Assembly (NCBI GenBank): GCA_949297285.1
Contig: CASFRL010000033.1
Coordinates: 1 to 64,000 of the forward strand
Reading direction: 5' to 3'
From: an uncultured Bacteroidales bacterium
Lineage (GTDB): Bacteria > Bacteroidota > Bacteroidia > Bacteroidales > Coprobacteraceae
Length of the DNA: 64,000 bases
Shown here: positions 5,429-57,923 of the stretch, piece after piece
Layout: each line of letters begins with the position of its first letter
Position numbering within the stretch: position 1 is the stretch's first letter
The notes under the pieces: model-generated
The model's input: only the letters and a program-made list of their open reading frames with translations
Told to the model about the DNA's origin: nothing
Databases searched by the model: none
Translations under genes and position numbers: made by a program

Positions 5429-8007
5429 TGAGATTCGTAATCACTACCGTTATATTATGTGTCTGTTTAAGTGTCAAGGCCCAACAAGCTCAGACCGAAA
5501 TGATAAGAATTATAGACGCTCTGCAAAAGAGCTATTCTGTTCATTTTATATATGAATCATCTTTGGCAAATGTTAAACCGGGAGGTATCTTGTTACAAAA
5601 CAGATCATTGGAGGAAAATTTGAAAAGCGTTTTTGGCCGAACAGGTATCCGATGGGAAGTTCAAGGAGAGACTGTTTTGTTATTCCGTCAGAATAACTAT
5701 ACATTTTCGGGGTATGTATGTGCCGATAACGGAGAAACGCTTATCAATGTAACTGTTTTTGATCTCACCACCCAAGTCGGTACGCTGAGTAATGCGCAGG
5801 GATTTTTCAGCATTACACTCCCTGAAGGGGGACATAAACTCCGTTTTTCTTATATAGGTTATCGGGATGTCATTAAAGAGTTTGATTTAAATTCGGATTA
5901 CAATAGTGTTGTTTATATGCAAGAGAGTACGACTTCTTTGCATGAAGTGGAAGTGGTTGCCGATCTGAATTCTCCGCTTCGCACTACACAGACAGGTAAG
6001 ATTTCGTTAGTCCCCGAACAATTAAATACAGAATTTTCATTGCTTAGTTCCCCGGATTTGGTCAAGGTACTCCAACAGATTCCCGGCGTATCTTCCGGGA
6101 CAGAATTATTGTCGGGTATGTATGTGCATGGCGGCAAAAATGATGAGAATCTTTTTTTGCTCGATGGTACGCCGCTCTATCAAGTTAATCATTTGGGCGG
6201 AATATTCTCAGCTTTCAATACCGATATAGTCAAAAATGTCGATTTCTATAAAAGCGGATTCCCTGCCCGTTATGGCGGAAGATTGTCTTCCGTTGTCGAT
6301 GTCCGTACAAAAGAAGGAAACATGAAAAAACTTCACGGAAATTTTTCTTTAGGGTTGCTTGACGGAAGATTTCAGTTAGAAGGGCCGATTATAAAAGAGA
6401 TGACCTCATTCAACTTTGCCATAAGAAGAAGTTGGGCGGACATTTTTACAACTCCTGCTATTTTTTTATTCAACCGGGCCAATCCAAAGGATAAAAAAAA
6501 TATACGTTATGCCTTTTATGACATCAATGGAAAAATTACCCACCGTTTTTCAGAAAAGCACAAACTTTCGTTCAGTGTGTATTCCGGGAAAGACCTGTTG
6601 AAGATAAAAGCCCGGCAAATATTCGATGAAAATATGTCTGATGTAAATGTGGAACGCTATAATTCGGATTTCAAGCTCAAATGGGGAAACACGACTACTG
6701 CTTTGACATGGAACAGCCAGTTTTCTCCGAAACTCTACGCAACTGTGGCGGGTATCTATTCGCGTAATATCTCATTATATGACTATGTCGAGGACGATCG
6801 TTTTTTCGATGAAGGAGAGCAAACCTCCATGAATAGGGTAGAACGTTTTAATCATTCCATGATCGACGACATCGGTTACCGTATAGATTTCGATTATCGA
6901 CCGATAGTGAATCATCATATTCATTTCGGAAGCAACTACTTGTATCACAGCTATCGGCCGCAAAATATAGTTTCCAGAGATCAAGATAACGGGAGTATTT
7001 TATCGAACGAAAATACAAACCGCTATAAAGGTAGCGAAATATCTTTATATGCAGAAGATGAGATGACATTATTGCCGCAGATGAAAATAAATGCGGGGTT
7101 ACATTATACCCTTTACCGTACGGATGGCATGACAAACCATTCTTTTGAACCGAGATTGGCCGTCGGTTATCAGGTTTCAGAAAAGGCCATGCTGAAAGCC
7201 TCCTATACAGAAATGAGCCAGTTTGCTCACCAACTCTCAAATACCTATTTAAATTTACCGACCGATAGTTGGGTGCCTTCTACACGCAAGGTGCGTCCTA
7301 TGCGTTCAAGACAATTCGCTGTCGGAGCGTATATGGAGCTTCCTTTACATCTTCGTTTAGATGTAGAAGGATATTACCGTACGACAAGTCGATTGATCGA
7401 ATATGATGGCGGGAACAATCTGATACTTCCTGCCGATAATTGGGACAATCTGGTTAAGAGTGGGAAAGGCCGGTCTTATGGTATGGAGTTGTCATTGGCG
7501 TATAAGGAGAATAACAATATTGTCGAAATGGGATATACTCTCTCGTGGAATCAGCAAAAATTTAAAGATTTCTATCCCGATTGGTATTTCAGTAAATTTG
7601 ACAACCGGCATAAGTTGAATATATCCTTCAGACATAAGTTTAATAACCGTATAGATGCTTATTCCGCTTGGACTTACCTCACGGGAGATCGTGCTACCAT
7701 TCCCACACATTATGCCAACGGACCATCTTTTCCAAAGGTCTCAGATTCTGATGAGCCGGAACTGATATATGGAAAACCAAATAACATCACTCTTCCGGCT
7801 TATCACCGTCTCGATGTGGGTATCAATTTCCGACGGTTCACCAAAAGAGGATTTGAGCGTATTTGGAATATTAGTATTTACAACGCTTATTGCCGCATGA
7901 ATGCTTTTTACACTCGGATAGAGCGCCTGCCTGATGGTAGTTTCAGGGGAAAAGGATTTGGTATTTTCCCGATCATTCCATCTTTTAGTTATACACTTAA
8001 ATTTTAA
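5428..8007 (+). CDS. TonB-dependent outer-membrane receptor with STN signalling domain
   Basis: This 859-residue protein has a signal peptide (about 1-18), then an STN/secretin-like signalling domain (about 20-85). A carboxypeptidase-regulatory-like beta-sandwich follows (about 90-170, YTFSGYVCADNGETLINVTV), then a plug (about 195-300) containing LLDGTPLYQVNHLGG and RYGGRLSSVVDVRT, and a 22-strand-type barrel ending in an aromatic Phe (YTLKF). The STN domain is what couples receptors to FecR/FecI pairs, and both genes are directly upstream. No SusD-like gene follows; instead a DUF4249 lipoprotein does, a known partner arrangement in Bacteroidetes. This suggests a substrate other than a classical SusCD glycan, which remains unknown. 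Confidence 0.93.
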   Translation: MRFVITTVILCVCLSVKAQQAQTEMIRIIDALQKSYSVHFIYESSLANVKPGGILLQNRSLEENLKSVFGRTGIRWEVQGETVLLFRQNNYTFSGYVCADNGETLINVTVFDLTTQVGTLSNAQGFFSITLPEGGHKLRFSYIGYRDVIKEFDLNSDYNSVVYMQESTTSLHEVEVVADLNSPLRTTQTGKISLVPEQLNTEFSLLSSPDLVKVLQQIPGVSSGTELLSGMYVHGGKNDENLFLLDGTPLYQVNHLGGIFSAFNTDIVKNVDFYKSGFPARYGGRLSSVVDVRTKEGNMKKLHGNFSLGLLDGRFQLEGPIIKEMTSFNFAIRRSWADIFTTPAIFLFNRANPKDKKNIRYAFYDINGKITHRFSEKHKLSFSVYSGKDLLKIKARQIFDENMSDVNVERYNSDFKLKWGNTTTALTWNSQFSPKLYATVAGIYSRNISLYDYVEDDRFFDEGEQTSMNRVERFNHSMIDDIGYRIDFDYRPIVNHHIHFGSNYLYHSYRPQNIVSRDQDNGSILSNENTNRYKGSEISLYAEDEMTLLPQMKINAGLHYTLYRTDGMTNHSFEPRLAVGYQVSEKAMLKASYTEMSQFAHQLSNTYLNLPTDSWVPSTRKVRPMRSRQFAVGAYMELPLHLRLDVEGYYRTTSRLIEYDGGNNLILPADNWDNLVKSGKGRSYGMELSLAYKENNNIVEMGYTLSWNQQKFKDFYPDWYFSKFDNRHKLNISFRHKFNNRIDAYSAWTYLTGDRATIPTHYANGPSFPKVSDSDEPELIYGKPNNITLPAYHRLDVGINFRRFTKRGFERIWNISIYNAYCRMNAFYTRIERLPDGSFRGKGFGIFPIIPSFSYTLKF

Positions 8008-8010
8008 ATA

Positions 8011-8991
8011 ATGAAATGTTTATATCGTATATTATGGTATGCTTATGTAGGGCTGTTAGCATCTTGTACGTATCATTTTAAATTGGATGACATGGCAGTA
8101 TCTCCTAAGCTGGTATTATACAGCTATCCGGGGGCTGGAGACACTACTGTCGTGCATCTCTCCCGAAGCTTGCCCCTTAATCAAAAAGGTGAAATTGAAT
8201 CGGGTTTGAGAGATGCAGAAGTATCTCTTACCGTAAATGATAAGACAACGCGGCTTGCGTGGACAAATGATTCTATACCGGGAGTCCCGGCACGGAGTTA
8301 TTATGCGGTACAAAAATACAAAGACGGAGACCGTGTCAGTATTTCCGTAGCAGCCGGAGATCAGAAAGTGGCATCTTCCGGTACGGTGATACCTCCTCCG
8401 TTTCCTTTAGAGTCGATTGAGTTGGTTCAAAAGCCCGAAAATCAGGGAACGATTCAATTTCGGATATGCTTTACCGACGATGTATCGACAAGAAACTGGT
8501 ATGCCTTGCAAGTAGAGCAGAAACAGATGTATTGGAGCAACGATGTATATACAGAAACAGTCTCCTCCATCAAGTTTGATTTGGATGACGAACCGTTATT
8601 GCATACTTCATCGGGATTGGACGATATTCTGATGATTGAGAATGAGTTTTACCGGAATCTTTATTTCTGGAATGACGAGAAAATACAAGGTAAAAGATAT
8701 ACGCTCCGACTTAACACAAATTTTAGGGATAATTATGAAAATGATTTCATAACTCCTGATGGGTTAGAGCATATTAAGAGCGTTGTGAAATATCGGGTCA
8801 TTATGTACAGCCTTTCAGAAGAGTTTTATAGATATTTGAAATCTTTGAATGATCAGAAAAACAACACTTTTGGAAGTTCAGAATTGGCTCCTATACGAGC
8901 TACTTATACCAATGTAAAAAATGGAATAGGAGTAGTAGGAGGATGTAGGATTTTCCAAACGCAATGGCTCGATAACTTACAGAAAAACTAA
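8011..8991 (+). CDS. DUF4249-family lipoprotein
   Basis: This 326-residue protein starts 3 bases after the receptor gene stop, so the two are in one operon. The N-terminus carries a lipobox (LLASC, Cys about residue 19), marking it as a lipoprotein. The order of a beta-rich N-terminal half (VLYSYPGAGDTTVVHLSRSL), a middle segment with YYAVQKYKDGDRVSISV, and a C-terminal half ending in GVVGGCRIF fits DUF4249, a family almost always found next to TonB receptors in Bacteroidetes. By analogy it may cap or assist the receptor at the outer membrane. No catalytic motif is visible and the biochemical role is unknown. Confidence 0.88.
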   Translation: MKCLYRILWYAYVGLLASCTYHFKLDDMAVSPKLVLYSYPGAGDTTVVHLSRSLPLNQKGEIESGLRDAEVSLTVNDKTTRLAWTNDSIPGVPARSYYAVQKYKDGDRVSISVAAGDQKVASSGTVIPPPFPLESIELVQKPENQGTIQFRICFTDDVSTRNWYALQVEQKQMYWSNDVYTETVSSIKFDLDDEPLLHTSSGLDDILMIENEFYRNLYFWNDEKIQGKRYTLRLNTNFRDNYENDFITPDGLEHIKSVVKYRVIMYSLSEEFYRYLKSLNDQKNNTFGSSELAPIRATYTNVKNGIGVVGGCRIFQTQWLDNLQKN

Positions 8992-51493: not shown

Positions 51494-52081
51494 ATGGATA
51501 CAAATATAATTCCGGTAGAAAATCATCCGTTAAAACCGTTTGTTCTGCCCAATGCACAAGTATTGATGCTGGGAAGCTTTCCCCCGAAACAAATTCGTTG
51601 GTGCATGGATTTCTATTACCCGAATCTTCAAAACGATATGTGGCGCATTTTTGGTCAGATATTTTTTGAGAATAAAGACTTCTTTCTAAACGACGAAAAG
51701 AAATTTGATAAAAATCGTATTATTACTTTTCTGACAAAAAAAGGCATTGCGCTGAGCGATACGGCACACTCTGTAAGGCGGTTAAAAGATAATGCGTCAG
51801 ACAAATTCTTAGAAGTTGTTGAACCTCAAGATATCAATGCCTTGTTACAGCAAATGCCGCAATGCCGTGCGATTGTTACAACAGGTCAAAAAGCGACAGA
51901 GACATTGAGTGCATTATTCTCTTCTGAAATTCCGATTATCGGGTCTTTTACGGAAGTTGAATATCAAGGACGTAAAATTCTTTTTTACAGAATGCCCTCG
52001 TCTTCTCGGGCATATCCGATGCCTTTAGTCAAAAAAGCCGCGATATATGCCCGTATGTTCAAAGATTTAGGATTATTGTAA
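51494..52081 (+). CDS. Uracil-DNA glycosylase family protein
   Basis: This 195-residue protein fits a DNA-glycosylase-like alpha/beta fold: VLMLGSFPPKQIRWCMDFYY near the N-terminus, GIALSDTAHSV in the middle, and a C-terminal FYRMPSSSRAYPM segment equivalent to the conserved HPSP-type loop. The catalytic water-activating Asp of classical UNG (motif GQDPYH) is not seen; this is the divergent family common in Bacteroidetes. Its 3' end overlaps the convergent MBL gene by 9 bases. Confidence 0.82.
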   Translation: MDTNIIPVENHPLKPFVLPNAQVLMLGSFPPKQIRWCMDFYYPNLQNDMWRIFGQIFFENKDFFLNDEKKFDKNRIITFLTKKGIALSDTAHSVRRLKDNASDKFLEVVEPQDINALLQQMPQCRAIVTTGQKATETLSALFSSEIPIIGSFTEVEYQGRKILFYRMPSSSRAYPMPLVKKAAIYARMFKDLGLL

Positions 52082-52717
52082 ATAGGGGTTATGATCTTTT
52101 TCAAACCCTATTGTTGTGGTGGGTCCATGCCCCGAATAGAGCATTGTATTTTCGGGTAAGATTAACAGTTTTTTTTGAATTCCAGAAATCAGTTGATTGT
52201 AATTCCCTCCGGGAAGATCTGTCCGGCCGATACTGCCTCGGAAAAGTACATCCCCGACAAACGCCAAATTTTCTTCTCGACAATAATATACGACACTACC
52301 GGGAGAATGTCCGGGAACATGAATTACTTGTAATGAATAATTACCAATTTTGAAGGTGTCATTTTCATCGATATGTTGTTTAATGGGGATAGGAGCGTCT
52401 AATAGTTGAATACCGAACATCATGGCTTGTCCCTCCATATTTTCCAAAAGAAATTCATCTGCCGGATGAGCTGACAGCCCGACTTCAAAAGTCCGGGATA
52501 TGTATCTGTCGCCGAAACTATGATCGAGATGCAAATGTGTCGCCAACAAAAATTTTACTTTCAACTTATTGTCGATGATGTAATCTGATAATATTTTTTG
52601 TTCTTCAGGATAAAGACATCCGGCATCGATAATTGCGCATTCTCCGGTTTGAGTATCGGAAATGACGTATGTATTCTCAGAAAATGGATTGAATTGAAAA
52701 TTTTTAATGACTAACAT
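52073..52717 (-). CDS. MBL-fold metallo-hydrolase
   Basis: This 214-residue protein has the binuclear zinc motif THLHLDHSFGD (about 60-70), with further ligands His at HVPGHSPGSVVYY and in YSGHGPTTTIG. It resembles glyoxalase-II-like hydrolases. The substrate is not defined by the sequence. It lies 4 bases downstream of rsmG and is convergent with the uracil-DNA-glycosylase-like gene. Confidence 0.92.
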   Translation of the reverse strand: MLVIKNFQFNPFSENTYVISDTQTGECAIIDAGCLYPEEQKILSDYIIDNKLKVKFLLATHLHLDHSFGDRYISRTFEVGLSAHPADEFLLENMEGQAMMFGIQLLDAPIPIKQHIDENDTFKIGNYSLQVIHVPGHSPGSVVYYCREENLAFVGDVLFRGSIGRTDLPGGNYNQLISGIQKKLLILPENTMLYSGHGPTTTIGFEKDHNPYLQ

Positions 52718-52721
52718 ATGT

Positions 52722-53351
52722 TTATTTATTGATTATAGGGACATAAATAACTTTTTTTGTATCGAAATACTCTTCTTCAAAATAATCTTTCAAATCATAG
52801 ATAATCGATACTTTTCTAAAGGGTGCAACTTCGCTTTGGAGATCTCCGCCTTTCAGACAGATAAGGCCGTTCGGCATTGCATTCTGTTGTTCTTTCTTAA
52901 TGTTTTTACGGATTAGTTTCATTAAATCGCCCAACGGCATAACTGCACGGCTGACGATGAAATCGAATTTTGCTTTTTCTTCTTCTACACCACAATGTTT
53001 GCATGTTACATTTTGTAGACCGATAGACTGGGCTATTTCAGAGGCAACCTTAATTTTTTTACCGATACGGTCGACTAAATGGAAGTTACATTCGGGGAAC
53101 AAGATCGCCAAGGGAATTCCGGGAAATCCACCTCCGGTGCCGACATCCATTATACTACTTCCCGATGAAAATTGTATTATTTTAGCGATTCCTAAAGAAT
53201 GTAAGATATGATGAGTATATAAATTATCTATATCTTTTCGGGAAATCACGTTGATTTTGCTATTCCAATCGTTATATAGTTCGCCTAATGCAGCAAATTT
53301 CGCTTTTTGTTCTTCACTCAAAGAAGAAAAATATTTTTCAATAATTTGCAT
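52722..53351 (-). CDS. rsmG: 16S rRNA (guanine-527-N7)-methyltransferase
   Basis: This 209-residue enzyme methylates G527 of 16S rRNA with SAM. The SAM-binding motif DVGTGGGFPGIPLAI lies at about residue 70. Flanking family segments include WNSKINVISRKDIDNLY and IVSRAVMPLGDLM. Length is typical. It is followed 4 bases downstream by the MBL-hydrolase gene, which is probably cotranscribed. Confidence 0.96.
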   Translation of the reverse strand: MQIIEKYFSSLSEEQKAKFAALGELYNDWNSKINVISRKDIDNLYTHHILHSLGIAKIIQFSSGSSIMDVGTGGGFPGIPLAILFPECNFHLVDRIGKKIKVASEIAQSIGLQNVTCKHCGVEEEKAKFDFIVSRAVMPLGDLMKLIRKNIKKEQQNAMPNGLICLKGGDLQSEVAPFRKVSIIYDLKDYFEEEYFDTKKVIYVPIINK

Positions 53352-53560: not shown

Positions 53561-55699
53561 TTATTTGATAATCTTTTGCGTTTTGTAGATGCTATTCCCT
53601 TTAACTTGAATTACATATATACCTTTCATAAGATTCGATATGTCTAAAATCTCTTCTTGGCCGATAGCTGCCTCATTCAATTTCTGAGATTTCACGAGTT
53701 GTCCGTTTGTATTATATATAGCTATCGTAACCGAAGTATCCTTTTTGCCGAATAAAAGATGGCAATTCCCATCCCCCGGCATATAGACGGTAACATCAGG
53801 AATATTAGTCCCCTCGTTATCTATCCCGGCTGCCATTGTTACACACTCTTTAATGCCGTTCCATGCATCTATTTTACCAAATCCCCATGTATTACTACCA
53901 TTTTCCGGAATTGTCCCGGTATATTCATCCTTCCGTGCCGTCTTTTTTAGAACCGCTCTGACATCGTCCGGGCTAAGTTTCGGATTTGCTTGCAGCCATG
54001 TTGCCAATACACCTGTAATAAACGGAGCCGACATAGATGTCCCAGACATATAACCGTAATAATATTTCTTCCCGTTTACTACTGTATTGTCAGATATACC
54101 GCTATCCGAAGACTGTGCACTGGAGTATGACGAAATAATCATATTTCCGGGTGCTGTGATGTCCGGTTTTATGCGATTGTCTGCTGTCGGTCCAAGGCTT
54201 GAAAACTCGGTGATCATGCCTTCTTTTGATGCATAACTACCCGTACGAGTAGCATAAGCTCCGGCAGTGATTATTTTTTTCCCTGTGCCTCCAATTTCTC
54301 CGACAGTGTAATTTGAATCGCCGGCTTCCCATTGTGATAAACCGTTATTGGTAAACTGGCTATAATAATCATCGGCCCAGGCATGTACCGTCCCGCTTGT
54401 CGCTGTAATCGTAATGCCTATGGCATATCCCGGTCTTATACTGCTTACTTCAGAAATAATATACGCATTCGGTTTATTGTTATTAGCATACACTTCATAA
54501 TTAATTTCGACAATTCCACTTATTCCGTTTTTTAGGGTAATTGTTTTAGAACCACTTCCTGAAATATTGACTGTTTCAGAGTATTCTGATCGGTTTTGGG
54601 TAGTATTATACCGATCAATGGTAATTTTAAAAGTATGGTTAGGTTCACCCCAAACATCTATTGCTGCATATCGATTATTTGTATCCAAAAATTTGACAAA
54701 TGTCTTTAATGTATTATCCGACGCAGAGAATGTTTTGCTGATATGTATCGGATCACAGCCTTCATTCCCGGCAGATCCGACAAATAATCGTCCCGGGCCC
54801 TGCAAGTTGTCTGCCACTTGATCAAATGTCGAAGTTCCATCATGGGGCCCCGCATGAGAACCTAAACTCATATTGATAACACATGGCTTGCCTACCGACT
54901 CTGCATAATTATAGATGTATTTCATCGCATCCGAAAGGCTTACTTGATCGGTTGTGCCATCATTTAGATCATAACTTACTATCACAATATCTGCCTCTCC
55001 GGCTATTCCATAATAAGGTTTTGTATGATCTGCACCGGCAGCAATACCTGTCACATGAGTAGCATGAGTTTCATTTGTTGCGTCATATTTTGCTGCAAGA
55101 ATTGCTTCCGTAGTTTTGTATTCGGTACCATAAGAAAAACCGCTCGGAGCATCTCCTTTTTTATTTTGATCCCATACTCTCTTTACGCGCAATTCCGTCC
55201 CCGCTGTATTGTAAAAATTAATGTGCCCATATTCAAAGCCACAATCGACAATACCGACAACAACATCCTTTCCCAAGAAAGGCGTCGATAAATCTTTCCC
55301 GCTTTGCACATCGGTTACCAATGTCTCGGTTCTGGCTTTGTTCATTTTTTGATATATGGGTGTGCTGATCTGAACATATTTTACATCGTCCAAACGAGAT
55401 ATGTCTTCGATCTTATCCACGGGAATCTGCGCTGTAATCAAAGAATCGATACAGGTATTTACTTTTACATCATAACTCTCCAATGAATAAGGATCGACAC
55501 CAGATCTTAAATAAATATATGATTTAATATATTGGGTATCACCTATCTTTTTTAAATTAAATTTTGCAGAACCGGTTTTCGAAAATTCTGCTTGTTTTGT
55601 ATTATTTATAACATACTGAGTATAGGGTGATATTTTTGATTGTGCCAATATCAACATGGCAAAACAGAAGAATGAAAGAAATAAGGAAAATTTTTTCAT
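53561..55699 (-). CDS. Subtilisin-like (S8) serine protease with type IX-like sorting domain
   Basis: This 712-residue secreted protease has a signal peptide (about 1-19). A propeptide-like domain follows (about 45-117, YIKSYIYLRSGVDPYSLE and VNTCIDSLITAQIPVDKIED). The catalytic triad is Asp at about 152 (VGIVDCGFEYGH), His at about 215 (ATHVTGIAAG) and Ser at about 555 (SGTSMSAPF), with the oxyanion Asn in GSAGNEG near 312. A large beta insertion (about 325-470) lies between His and Ser. The last 75 residues (GNCHLLFGKKDTSV to GIYVIQVKG) match a type IX secretion C-terminal domain. The start is ATG 55699; a TTG at 55705 is in frame. The lipoprotein gene ends 2 bases upstream. Confidence 0.9.
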   Translation of the reverse strand: MKKFSLFLSFFCFAMLILAQSKISPYTQYVINNTKQAEFSKTGSAKFNLKKIGDTQYIKSYIYLRSGVDPYSLESYDVKVNTCIDSLITAQIPVDKIEDISRLDDVKYVQISTPIYQKMNKARTETLVTDVQSGKDLSTPFLGKDVVVGIVDCGFEYGHINFYNTAGTELRVKRVWDQNKKGDAPSGFSYGTEYKTTEAILAAKYDATNETHATHVTGIAAGADHTKPYYGIAGEADIVIVSYDLNDGTTDQVSLSDAMKYIYNYAESVGKPCVINMSLGSHAGPHDGTSTFDQVADNLQGPGRLFVGSAGNEGCDPIHISKTFSASDNTLKTFVKFLDTNNRYAAIDVWGEPNHTFKITIDRYNTTQNRSEYSETVNISGSGSKTITLKNGISGIVEINYEVYANNNKPNAYIISEVSSIRPGYAIGITITATSGTVHAWADDYYSQFTNNGLSQWEAGDSNYTVGEIGGTGKKIITAGAYATRTGSYASKEGMITEFSSLGPTADNRIKPDITAPGNMIISSYSSAQSSDSGISDNTVVNGKKYYYGYMSGTSMSAPFITGVLATWLQANPKLSPDDVRAVLKKTARKDEYTGTIPENGSNTWGFGKIDAWNGIKECVTMAAGIDNEGTNIPDVTVYMPGDGNCHLLFGKKDTSVTIAIYNTNGQLVKSQKLNEAAIGQEEILDISNLMKGIYVIQVKGNSIYKTQKIIK

Positions 55700-55701
55700 A
55701 A

Positions 55702-56163
55702 TCAACGTGTTTTTGGAATTTTCGGATTGACAGTTTTTGTTAGTTCTATACTTGAAATATTAGGTAAAGACACTAATTCAGATATTTGAGAAAGCTCACA
55801 TAAATAACTTTTTAATGTGTCGGAATAGGAAACAATCGATATTCCTGCTTTTTCATCTTTATTTATATCGAAATTCGATTTAGTATGTAAATATCCCTTG
55901 ATGTAATATTGCCCGTCCAAATATTTTAAACTATATTTTTTTTGAAGTTGTTCGGAAGGAATATAGTTTTTCTTAGACAAATCTCCTTTTGTCTCTTTTA
56001 ATAGATCATCCCATAACATTTTGAAATGATTTGAAAATCGAACTGTATCGGGAAGGGCATAAATAGTCATATAATTATCTTGCTTTGACTGGGATAAATT
56101 TTGTCGATGAGCACAAGAAATACAAAAAAATAGAATTGATGCTAAAATAACTCCTTTCACCAT
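55702..56163 (-). CDS. Propeptide-like lipoprotein paired with the S8 protease
   Basis: This 153-residue lipoprotein has a lipobox (CISCAH, Cys about residue 18). Its mature C-terminal region (about 75-147, YIKGYLHTKSNFDINKDE then SYLCELSQISELVSL and IELT) aligns over about 70 residues with the protease propeptide region at its residues about 55-117: shared YIK-Y, S--D, spaced I/V pairs, and a closing pattern of alternating hydrophobics. A free-standing propeptide-like protein could inhibit the protease or help it fold. Its stop lies 2 bases before the protease start. Similarity was judged by eye. Confidence 0.75.
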   Translation of the reverse strand: MVKGVILASILFFCISCAHRQNLSQSKQDNYMTIYALPDTVRFSNHFKMLWDDLLKETKGDLSKKNYIPSEQLQKKYSLKYLDGQYYIKGYLHTKSNFDINKDEKAGISIVSYSDTLKSYLCELSQISELVSLPNISSIELTKTVNPKIPKTR

Positions 56164-56321: not shown

Positions 56322-57623
56322 CTAAAATAAATAATTGATCCCAAGATCAATACTGTTTTCTCCATCCTCCCGGTTGAACGCTCTTCCCAATTCTGCAGAA
56401 AGGACAAAATTATGATTCATAACCAATTTCAACCCTATTCCTGCACTTGTATGAAAACGCTCTTTTTTGCCACTATATAGCAAAGGGTCATTACTCTCTT
56501 TTTGTAAATTCGACCGATAGGATTGCAACACTATCCCCGCATCGAAAAACGGATTTGTTCCAATATACCAATTTTGCTTTAAGAATCTGATTGTCTTTGA
56601 TCGTAATCTCAACTCGATATTTGTCCAACCGATTCCGTTTCCAACTATTCGATTGCGCAATATTCCCCTTAAACTGTTTGTCCCTCCCAATCCTTCAGAA
56701 TAGGTCTGCCTTATATAATAAGTATTTATATCAGATAAAAAATAAAATGGGACGTCTCCGAAAGGTGTAAATTGCAGGCCTATCCGTCCGGCAAGCGTCA
56801 ATCGTTCTCCCCAAAGAGGCTGAAAGTAACTTAGATTTAATGTGCTCCTTACAAAAGAGTAACCGTCTCTGTTTATCCAATCAGGAGACAATGCTAAAAT
56901 AAACTCGCCATACATCCCACGAGTCGGGTCAGCTTCTCTATCTCTTGAATCATAAACTAACCCGGCTTTCCATTGTAAAACATCGCCGCCATCGGCTTCA
57001 TCCCGATTTATTAATCCGGCTTCTATATACCGATTATAGAGATTATCAGCTCCGGCATATTTTTTTAATGTGACCGATTTTATAGCCATTCTTTGCCAAC
57101 TGATACCGGCCATCCAATTAAGTTTTCCGAAAATAACCCCTTGTAATCCGAAAATCATCCGAATTTGTTTACGATCTATTTTATAGAAAGAGGCATTAAG
57201 ATTCTCTATATAAGGTGCATTACGCCCATTATATCCATAAAAATCGCACATATTATCGGGTAGATATGCAATATCTAAAGATAATCTGTGATTTTTCCAT
57301 AATTGAGGAGAATCGTAAAAAAAGCAGTATGCTCCAGACCCTTTTGTATATCGGGCTATTTCAAAACAGAATTTATGTCTGTAATCAGGATAATTCGAAC
57401 CATCACCGAAATGATATAATTCGCAGTATATACCATATTGGAATCCTAAATCAGTATTATACGTAATCTCTGGGAATGGCATTATACTCCAGCCCTTCTT
57501 GTTCTCGGAATTTGTCAGTGAATCTTGTAATGCAGCATACCCTTTTTCTATATACAAAATCGACAATAATCCGAAAAATAATGCGATAAACCCTTTTTTA
57601 TGGCGTACTAATAATGTATTCAT
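56322..57623 (-). CDS. Omp85/BamA-type outer-membrane protein
   Basis: This 433-residue protein has a signal peptide (about 6-32 from the preferred start) and the beta-barrel of the BamA/TamA surface-antigen family: PEITYNTDLGFQYGIYCELY, GLGGTNSLRGILRNRIVG, and a C-terminal strand GINYLF. It lacks clear POTRA domains, so it is a POTRA-less Omp85-like protein. Its role is probably insertion or export, but that is inference. It is upstream of the protease operon in the same direction, with a 158-base gap. The start is ATG 57623; another ATG is at 57638. Confidence 0.8.
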   Translation of the reverse strand: MNTLLVRHKKGFIALFFGLLSILYIEKGYAALQDSLTNSENKKGWSIMPFPEITYNTDLGFQYGIYCELYHFGDGSNYPDYRHKFCFEIARYTKGSGAYCFFYDSPQLWKNHRLSLDIAYLPDNMCDFYGYNGRNAPYIENLNASFYKIDRKQIRMIFGLQGVIFGKLNWMAGISWQRMAIKSVTLKKYAGADNLYNRYIEAGLINRDEADGGDVLQWKAGLVYDSRDREADPTRGMYGEFILALSPDWINRDGYSFVRSTLNLSYFQPLWGERLTLAGRIGLQFTPFGDVPFYFLSDINTYYIRQTYSEGLGGTNSLRGILRNRIVGNGIGWTNIELRLRSKTIRFLKQNWYIGTNPFFDAGIVLQSYRSNLQKESNDPLLYSGKKERFHTSAGIGLKLVMNHNFVLSAELGRAFNREDGENSIDLGINYLF

Positions 57624-57923
57624 ACAACGAAAATACAATTTTTTTTTATCTGGTTCTTTTATACGAAGAAGAAGTTACAATAAAATGCTGCACTTAACAT
57701 AGATAAAAACTCTATAATTTTTATCAGTTTTTTATCATGTGCTTCATTTTAATATATATCTAATCCTATTTATAAAGAATTGATCTTTAATTATTGTATT
57801 TTATATCAATTTGTTTGTATTGTAAAATTTGTAATTACATTTTGCTTATAGACATTGATTTTTGAAAACAAAATGAAATATATTTGCGTATAAATATTTC
57901 ATAATGTTTAAAACAAATCTATT
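57624..57923 (+). promoter_or_regulatory. Spacer with promoter of amt
   Basis: AT-rich divergent region. TATATTTG at 57879-57886 fits the -7 element, with TTG at 57856-57858 20 bases upstream, 37 bases before the amt start. Nothing else is visible. Confidence 0.55.

Follow-up and report, generated by a model that had tools for sequence, protein, structure and literature searches.

In Tannerella forsythia, a small lipoprotein gene precedes every gene encoding a protease of the KLIKK type (PMC4404884), and these lipoproteins, the potempins (PotA–PotE), are described as specific inhibitors of the downstream protease, which is exported by the type IX secretion system (T9SS) (PMC7296668). Stand-alone inhibitors of the I9 type are known from fungi, plants and apicomplexans, and one of them, SUB1-ProM, is encoded beside its protease (PMC6993865). 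Two-gene units are also formed by the Aeromonas sobria S8 protease ASP and ORF2, a distinct protein that occludes the active site of ASP with its C-terminal end (Lys) (PMC5638518), and by Bacteroides C10 proteases, whose genes share a transcript with those of staphostatin-like proteins, some of them lipid-anchored (PMC3462683). Here, we describe a gene pair encoding a predicted lipoprotein and an S8 protease, found in a stretch of 64,000 nucleotides (the window; positions 1 to 64,000 of contig CASFRL010000033.1, assembly GCA_949297285.1) from an uncultured Bacteroidales bacterium of the Coprobacteraceae, which combines the gene arrangement of the potempins with the (predicted) fold of the stand-alone I9 inhibitors. 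We think it probable, from sequence and structure prediction, that the lipoprotein is a membrane-tethered, product-like inhibitor that would keep the T9SS-exported protease latent in the periplasm.

The pair consists of the following elements.

55702..56163, minus strand: free-standing propeptide-like protein with a predicted lipid anchor (P0001), 153 residues; open reading frame (ORF) with homology to the protease propeptide and 15 free-standing relatives
55700..55701, minus strand: intergenic gap of 2 nt separating the lipoprotein stop codon from the protease ATG, read from the sequence; -4 to +42 bp across 15 pairs
53561..55699, minus strand: S8 protease precursor (P0002), 712 residues; Peptidase_S8 at E 1.9e-39, Por_Secre_tail at E 1.7e-9

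The lipoprotein gene lies directly upstream of the protease gene, whose ATG is at 55699, and on the same strand. An earlier note made by a model from the letters alone (hereafter the sequence-only reading) had given the lipoprotein as 55699–56163; the end at 56163 stands, while 55699 proves to be the A of the protease ATG, and the size of 153 residues and the 2-base spacing are both borne out. The same note took the arrangement to be undescribed, which does not hold in view of the parallels offered by the potempins (PMC4404884, PMC7296668), ORF2 (PMC5638518) and the eukaryotic I9 inhibitors (PMC6993865). The closest of these in layout are the potempins, from the same phylum, in which a lipoprotein gene is likewise found directly upstream of a T9SS-exported protease; they are pair-specific inhibitors of the downstream enzyme, and the same role is predicted for the lipoprotein of the window. 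The Bacteroides C10/Bfi-Bti and streptococcal SpeB/Spi systems also pair an exported protease with a small, co-transcribed and often lipid-anchored predicted inhibitor, but their enzymes are cysteine proteases and the Bacteroides inhibitors are predicted to be of the beta-sheet, staphostatin type, whereas the window pairs an S8 enzyme with an alpha/beta protein.

The lipoprotein and the propeptide of the adjacent protease are homologous over the entire domain. BLASTP aligns lipoprotein residues 70–153 with protease residues 40–123 over 84 ungapped residues (21% identity, 50% positives, E 4e-4), and the Smith-Waterman score of 79 was reached by none of 2000 shuffles (maximum 73 against the whole protease and 55 against the propeptide). 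When the whole genome was searched in six frames with the lipoprotein, the sole other match was the propeptide of its partner (E 0.07). A profile-profile comparison (hhalign) of 8 lipoproteins with 14 Bacteroidota S8 propeptides gave a probability of 99.35 and a score of 123.9 over 105 columns, against a mean of 11.7 and a maximum of 19.4 in 200 column-shuffled controls, so that the similarity spans the whole propeptide domain. Chance resemblance is thus ruled out by the shuffles and the profile-profile comparison. The sequence-only reading was therefore right to relate the two proteins, and the shared run of about 70 residues that it had seen is real (it lies in the 84-residue match), although its extent was underestimated, the profiles reaching about 105 columns. 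The lipoprotein matches no family in Pfam (Inhibitor_I9 included) or NCBIfam, nor does the protease's own propeptide match the Pfam propeptide models; the Pfam library therefore leaves this branch uncovered. In a sequence search of the PDB, the lipoprotein profile found no match and the propeptide profile none that was significant.

Structure prediction leads to the same conclusion.

55720..56034, minus strand: I9-like propeptide domain of the lipoprotein, residues 44–148, with strands 85–94, 109–112, 117–123 and 136–141; core predicted local distance difference test (pLDDT) score above 90, PDB matches mostly subtilase propeptides

The AlphaFold2 model, built from 8 lipoprotein sequences only, has a core (pLDDT above 90) in which the four strands are accompanied by helices 45–57, 71–76, 100–104 and 124–131. 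When this model was compared with the PDB (Foldseek/VIA), the top of the list consisted almost entirely of subtilase propeptides, with Z-scores of 7.4 for Tk-SP, 7.0 for the CspB prodomain and 6.5 for the Tk-subtilisin propeptide, followed by PAM protease, the PCSK9 prodomain, the BPN' prosegment (4.6) and the stand-alone inhibitor POIA1 (4.0). In a separate model of the protease, built from 15 proteases, the N-terminal domain shows the same nine elements, the two numberings differing by a constant 49 residues from strand 31–33 onward. The lipoprotein is hence predicted to adopt a subtilase-propeptide (I9-like) fold; unrelated folds were what the sequence-only reading had named as evidence against itself, and AlphaFold2 predicts the same fold for lipoprotein and propeptide. 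Potempin structures are reportedly beta-barrels of the OB or up-and-down kind, and the potempins have no significant sequence similarity among themselves, while the lipoprotein model is a mixed alpha/beta propeptide fold. No potempin appeared in the fold-search lists of the lipoprotein model, which excludes nothing by itself.

Both ends of the lipoprotein are relevant to how it might work.

56113..56163, minus strand: lipoprotein signal peptide with the putatively lipidated residue Cys17, MVKGVILASILFFCIS-C, read from the sequence
56035..56112, minus strand: flexible tether, residues 18–43; pLDDT below 50 for residues 18–32 (AlphaFold2), a presumed linker
55705..55743, minus strand: C-terminal tail, residues 141–153, LTKTVNPK(148)IPKTR, with Lys148 at the P1-equivalent position according to the structure alignment and the relatives

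Cys17 follows Ile-Ser, and a lipobox-type Cys after S/A/G is present in 15/15 relatives, making lipidation likely. Surface-exported lipoproteins of Bacteroidota carry an acidic stretch after this Cys; here, the following residues are polar or basic and the acidic surface-export signal is found in 0/15 relatives, which is why the lipoprotein would be expected on the periplasmic side of the outer membrane. At the other end, the structure alignment places residue 148 of the model on the last chain residue of Tk-subtilisin (69), BPN' (77) and POIA1 (76). This is the column at which subtilisin propeptides are cut, and nine of the 15 lipoproteins end exactly there, the other six, including that of the window (by 5 residues, ending KTR), extending 2–11 residues past it; the P1-equivalent residue is Arg or Lys in 13/15. 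Glu140, which lies eight residues before column 148, is invariant in all 15 lipoproteins as well as in two forms fused to a protease (see below). In the BPN' propeptide, Glu69 and Asp71 cap enzyme helices, while the tail occupies the cleft of the active site as a product would (PMC6993865; PMC10580911). Glu69 is also eight residues before the end of that propeptide, and this spacing, together with the aligned ranges, suggests that Glu140 is its equivalent. A free-standing subtilase-propeptide fold, a C-terminal tail for the active site and a conserved helix-capping Glu are likewise features of POIA1, the yeast peptidase B inhibitor, Arabidopsis SPI-1, TgMIC5 and Plasmodium SUB1-ProM (PMC6993865). 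These five are all eukaryotic, whereas the protein of the window is bacterial, a predicted lipoprotein and encoded 2 nt from its protease. To our knowledge, none of the named stand-alone I9 inhibitors is lipid-anchored.

The partner enzyme comprises a signal peptide, an N-terminal domain of ~100 residues, Peptidase_S8 and a type A T9SS tail.

55346..55642, minus strand: the protease's own I9-like propeptide, about residues 20–118; each of its secondary-structure elements has a counterpart in the lipoprotein
53924..55273, minus strand: catalytic domain, residues 143–592, CspB/CspA-like fold with an inserted beta-rich domain (Pfam, PDB match)
53564..53749, minus strand: type A T9SS C-terminal sorting domain, residues 651–712; PF18962 and TIGR04183 above cut-off

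Asp152, His212, Ser555 and Asn312 are invariant across the 15 proteases. The P1 residue of the protease's own propeptide would be Lys118 by alignment, the conserved Arg123 being possible too, and the junction between propeptide and catalytic domain is modelled with pLDDT below 50 (model residues 96–98). The best PDB match of the catalytic domain is CspB of Clostridium perfringens (Z 37.6 over 436 residues), so that the Clostridium CspB/CspA proteins provide both the nearest solved fold for the enzyme and, with the CspB prodomain (Z 7.0), one of the nearest for the lipoprotein; unlike the pair of the window, they are spore proteins with a propeptide in cis, no such lipoprotein partner and no T9SS. 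As for export, the protease ends in QKIIK, an ordinary type A tail instead of the KLIKK-type tail found on the partners of potempins, and SprA (for which the PF14349 model was used in place of TIGR04189) is present in 12/12 genomes tested, including the source genome.

Taken together, these features suggest the following sequence of events. Lipoprotein and protease would both cross the inner membrane, and the protease would fold in the periplasm under its own propeptide until the T9SS carries it across the outer membrane. Its lipid and a flexible linker of ~25 residues would keep the lipoprotein on the inner side of that membrane, where it would catch any enzyme that has matured prematurely, its sheet capping the catalytic domain with Glu140 in place of BPN' Glu69 and its tail (~residues 141–148, basic at P1) filling the cleft of the active site much as a cleavage product does. 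Export would then leave the tethered inhibitor behind and free the enzyme outside the cell. T9SS cargo is folded in the periplasm before export (PMC5445135), which would be a reason for placing a guard there.

Subtilase propeptides are, however, chaperones as well as inhibitors (PMC10580911), and the lipoprotein might instead be a folding helper in trans, a tethered propeptide that serves as a folding template for the protease in the periplasm, close to the T9SS, and blocks its activity only for a time, in the manner of ORF2 with ASP. ORF2 is indeed a separate chaperone with its C-terminal residues at the ASP active site (half-maximal inhibitory concentration 84 nM; PMC5638518), and tight gene pairing fits this role equally well. 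However, ASP has no propeptide and depends on ORF2, an obligatory chaperone encoded downstream, whereas the protease of the window keeps a complete propeptide of the same predicted fold and has its lipoprotein encoded upstream. Moreover, closely related proteases exist that manage without a lipoprotein neighbour, which makes an obligatory foldase unlikely. For these two reasons, a folding helper appears less likely than an inhibitor, and we would be surprised if it turned out to be the main role.

How faithfully the two genes are kept together bears on the question of the target. Within the genus, they are side by side in three of five genomes and both absent from the other two (Coprobacter). 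When 393 genomes of the order were searched with a profile built from three lipoproteins, free-standing copies were retrieved in families f1, f109 and f8, most other strong matches being the N-termini of ORFs of 690–780 residues, which, where read, were S8 proteases. In f109, 9/9 genomes have the lipoprotein. The lipoprotein also occurs in one genome of another class of the phylum (G693) and in a fifth group (f78, genome G081), where it was found by inspecting the region upstream of protease genes. All 15 lipoprotein genes, from five family groups, are directly upstream of an S8 gene on the same strand, at the spacing given above, and the wider neighbourhood varies between groups. A search of 395 genomes of the class added four free-standing relatives (three in one genus, one in another family) that do not adjoin an S8 gene.

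L147:3861-4331 (plus strand), L148:1891-2361 (plus strand), L149:3707-4177 (plus strand) and L150:900-1364 (minus strand): free-standing relatives without an S8 neighbour

Pairing is thus strong (15/19) but, because of these four, not universal, and the conserved pairing that the sequence-only reading had proposed as a check is found, though not as an exclusive one. Three of the four are preceded by a PorP/SprF-like gene and by one whose product carries a T9SS-type C-terminal tail; these three have an Asp at the Glu140 position, eight residues before their end. The four unpaired relatives would fit an inhibitor whose targets are foreign subtilases or other secreted ones (belonging to competitors, to phages or to the host) and that adjoins the protease for shared regulation only. 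Tannerella PotA reportedly inhibits a host protease too. The direct pairing of 15 of the 19 relatives with an S8 protease, the two Coprobacter genomes that lack both genes together and the lack of a surface-export signal all argue for the partner as target instead, and we give a foreign target very little chance. Coprobacter secundus has a second, diverged S8 protease (L062:3484-5619, minus strand, 35% identity) without such an upstream lipoprotein, a natural control for partner selectivity.

The history of the lipoprotein was addressed with a tree of 56 domains, in which two fused forms cluster with the 15 free-standing lipoproteins (93/85), apart from nearly all protease propeptides.

L057:4721-6760 (minus strand) and L058, about 5950-8110 (plus strand): fused lipoprotein-like propeptide/S8 forms of family f78 (genomes G339 and G273)

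In these fused forms, a lipoprotein-like propeptide precedes an S8 domain without a T9SS tail, and they are apparently membrane-anchored proteases with the anchor on the propeptide. Pro69, Gly90 and Phe98 are present in all 15 lipoproteins and both fused forms and mostly missing from ordinary propeptides, and the lipoproteins, which are only 15–31% identical to the propeptide of their own partner, are often nearer another one. The low identity and the grouping with the fused forms rule out a recent copy of the partner's own propeptide. The lipoprotein, to judge from the tree and these markers, belongs to an older, separate group that includes the two fused forms; more likely than recent copying from the partner is that a lipid-anchored protease was split in two or that, conversely, the fused forms arose by fusion. 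A topology in which the free-standing forms are monophyletic to the exclusion of the fused ones is compatible with the data (approximately unbiased (AU) test, p 0.45, 102 columns). A single clade of paired proteases was rejected (AU p about 1e-90, on a quick tree), and the pair must therefore have been lost or the gene have moved. On the catalytic-domain tree, unpaired S8 proteases of f109, f42 and f29 (L087, L089, L091, L092 and L093) are nested among paired ones, which suggests repeated loss of the lipoprotein partner.

The fused forms lend some colour to two further explanations. One is that the lipoprotein serves as an anchor or escort, binding the mature enzyme non-covalently at the outer membrane, so that it stays with the cell or is passed on to the T9SS, without inhibiting it, which would make sense of the lipid anchor and flexible tether, and the two relatives fused to S8 domains without a T9SS tail do resemble membrane-held proteases. 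A conserved (putative) helix-capping Glu and a tail end at the P1 column are better suited to occupation of an active site, and T9SS cargo already has a sorting signal and surface attachment, so we consider this role improbable. The other is that the lipoprotein is a relic, the functionless leftover propeptide of a lipid-anchored S8 paralogue, loss of the catalytic domain being a plausible origin because the free-standing forms group with the fused ones (93/85, as above). The ORF, the lipobox, Glu140 and the gene position are nevertheless kept across five family groups in two classes, and it is not to be expected that a fragment without use would have survived or kept its place beside a protease, which leaves this explanation hardly any weight.

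An inhibitor acting in the periplasm therefore remains our preferred interpretation, against which several points have to be set: (i) the tail of the window lipoprotein runs 5 residues beyond the P1-equivalent and would therefore need trimming or a different mode of binding, (ii) the protease has its own propeptide and a second one is not obviously needed, (iii) 4/19 free-standing relatives have no S8 neighbour, (iv) many similar S8 proteases have no lipoprotein neighbour and (v) the small size of the domain makes for middling Z-scores (4 to 7.4), so that the claim of a shared fold rests on the nearly all-propeptide list and the sequence profile.

In bacteria, this arrangement has so far been described only with inhibitors of unrelated kinds, and the literature searched, which left out most subscription journals, contained no earlier account of a stand-alone subtilase propeptide with a lipid anchor from a bacterium. 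We tentatively put forward, as a possibility somewhat short of an even bet, that these proteins form a bacterial family not described before, in which stand-alone subtilase propeptides with a lipid anchor leash T9SS proteases, membrane crossing separating the pair and export amounting to activation. If true, this would (i) mean that Bacteroidota have used two or more unrelated folds, the potempin barrel and the propeptide among them, to arrive at a lipoprotein guarding a secreted protease, (ii) add a bacterial branch to the stand-alone I9-like inhibitors, the five of which named in PMC6993865 are all eukaryotic and (iii) provide, in the form of tethered propeptides that accompany T9SS subtilases, one concrete answer to whether T9SS cargo needs periplasmic helpers, which has been stated as unknown (PMC5445135).

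Around the pair, the upstream region contains only lone -7-like boxes (TAnnTTTG), with no matching -33 box. Also upstream, an Omp85-family outer membrane protein is encoded at window positions 56322–57638 (minus strand); it adjoins the pair also in G002 but not in Coprobacter secundus, and is for that reason probably outside the unit. On the 3' side of the protease gene, genes that by eye encode a metallo-beta-lactamase (MBL)-fold hydrolase and an RsmG-like methyltransferase occupy 52073–53351 (minus strand), and G002 has the same order.

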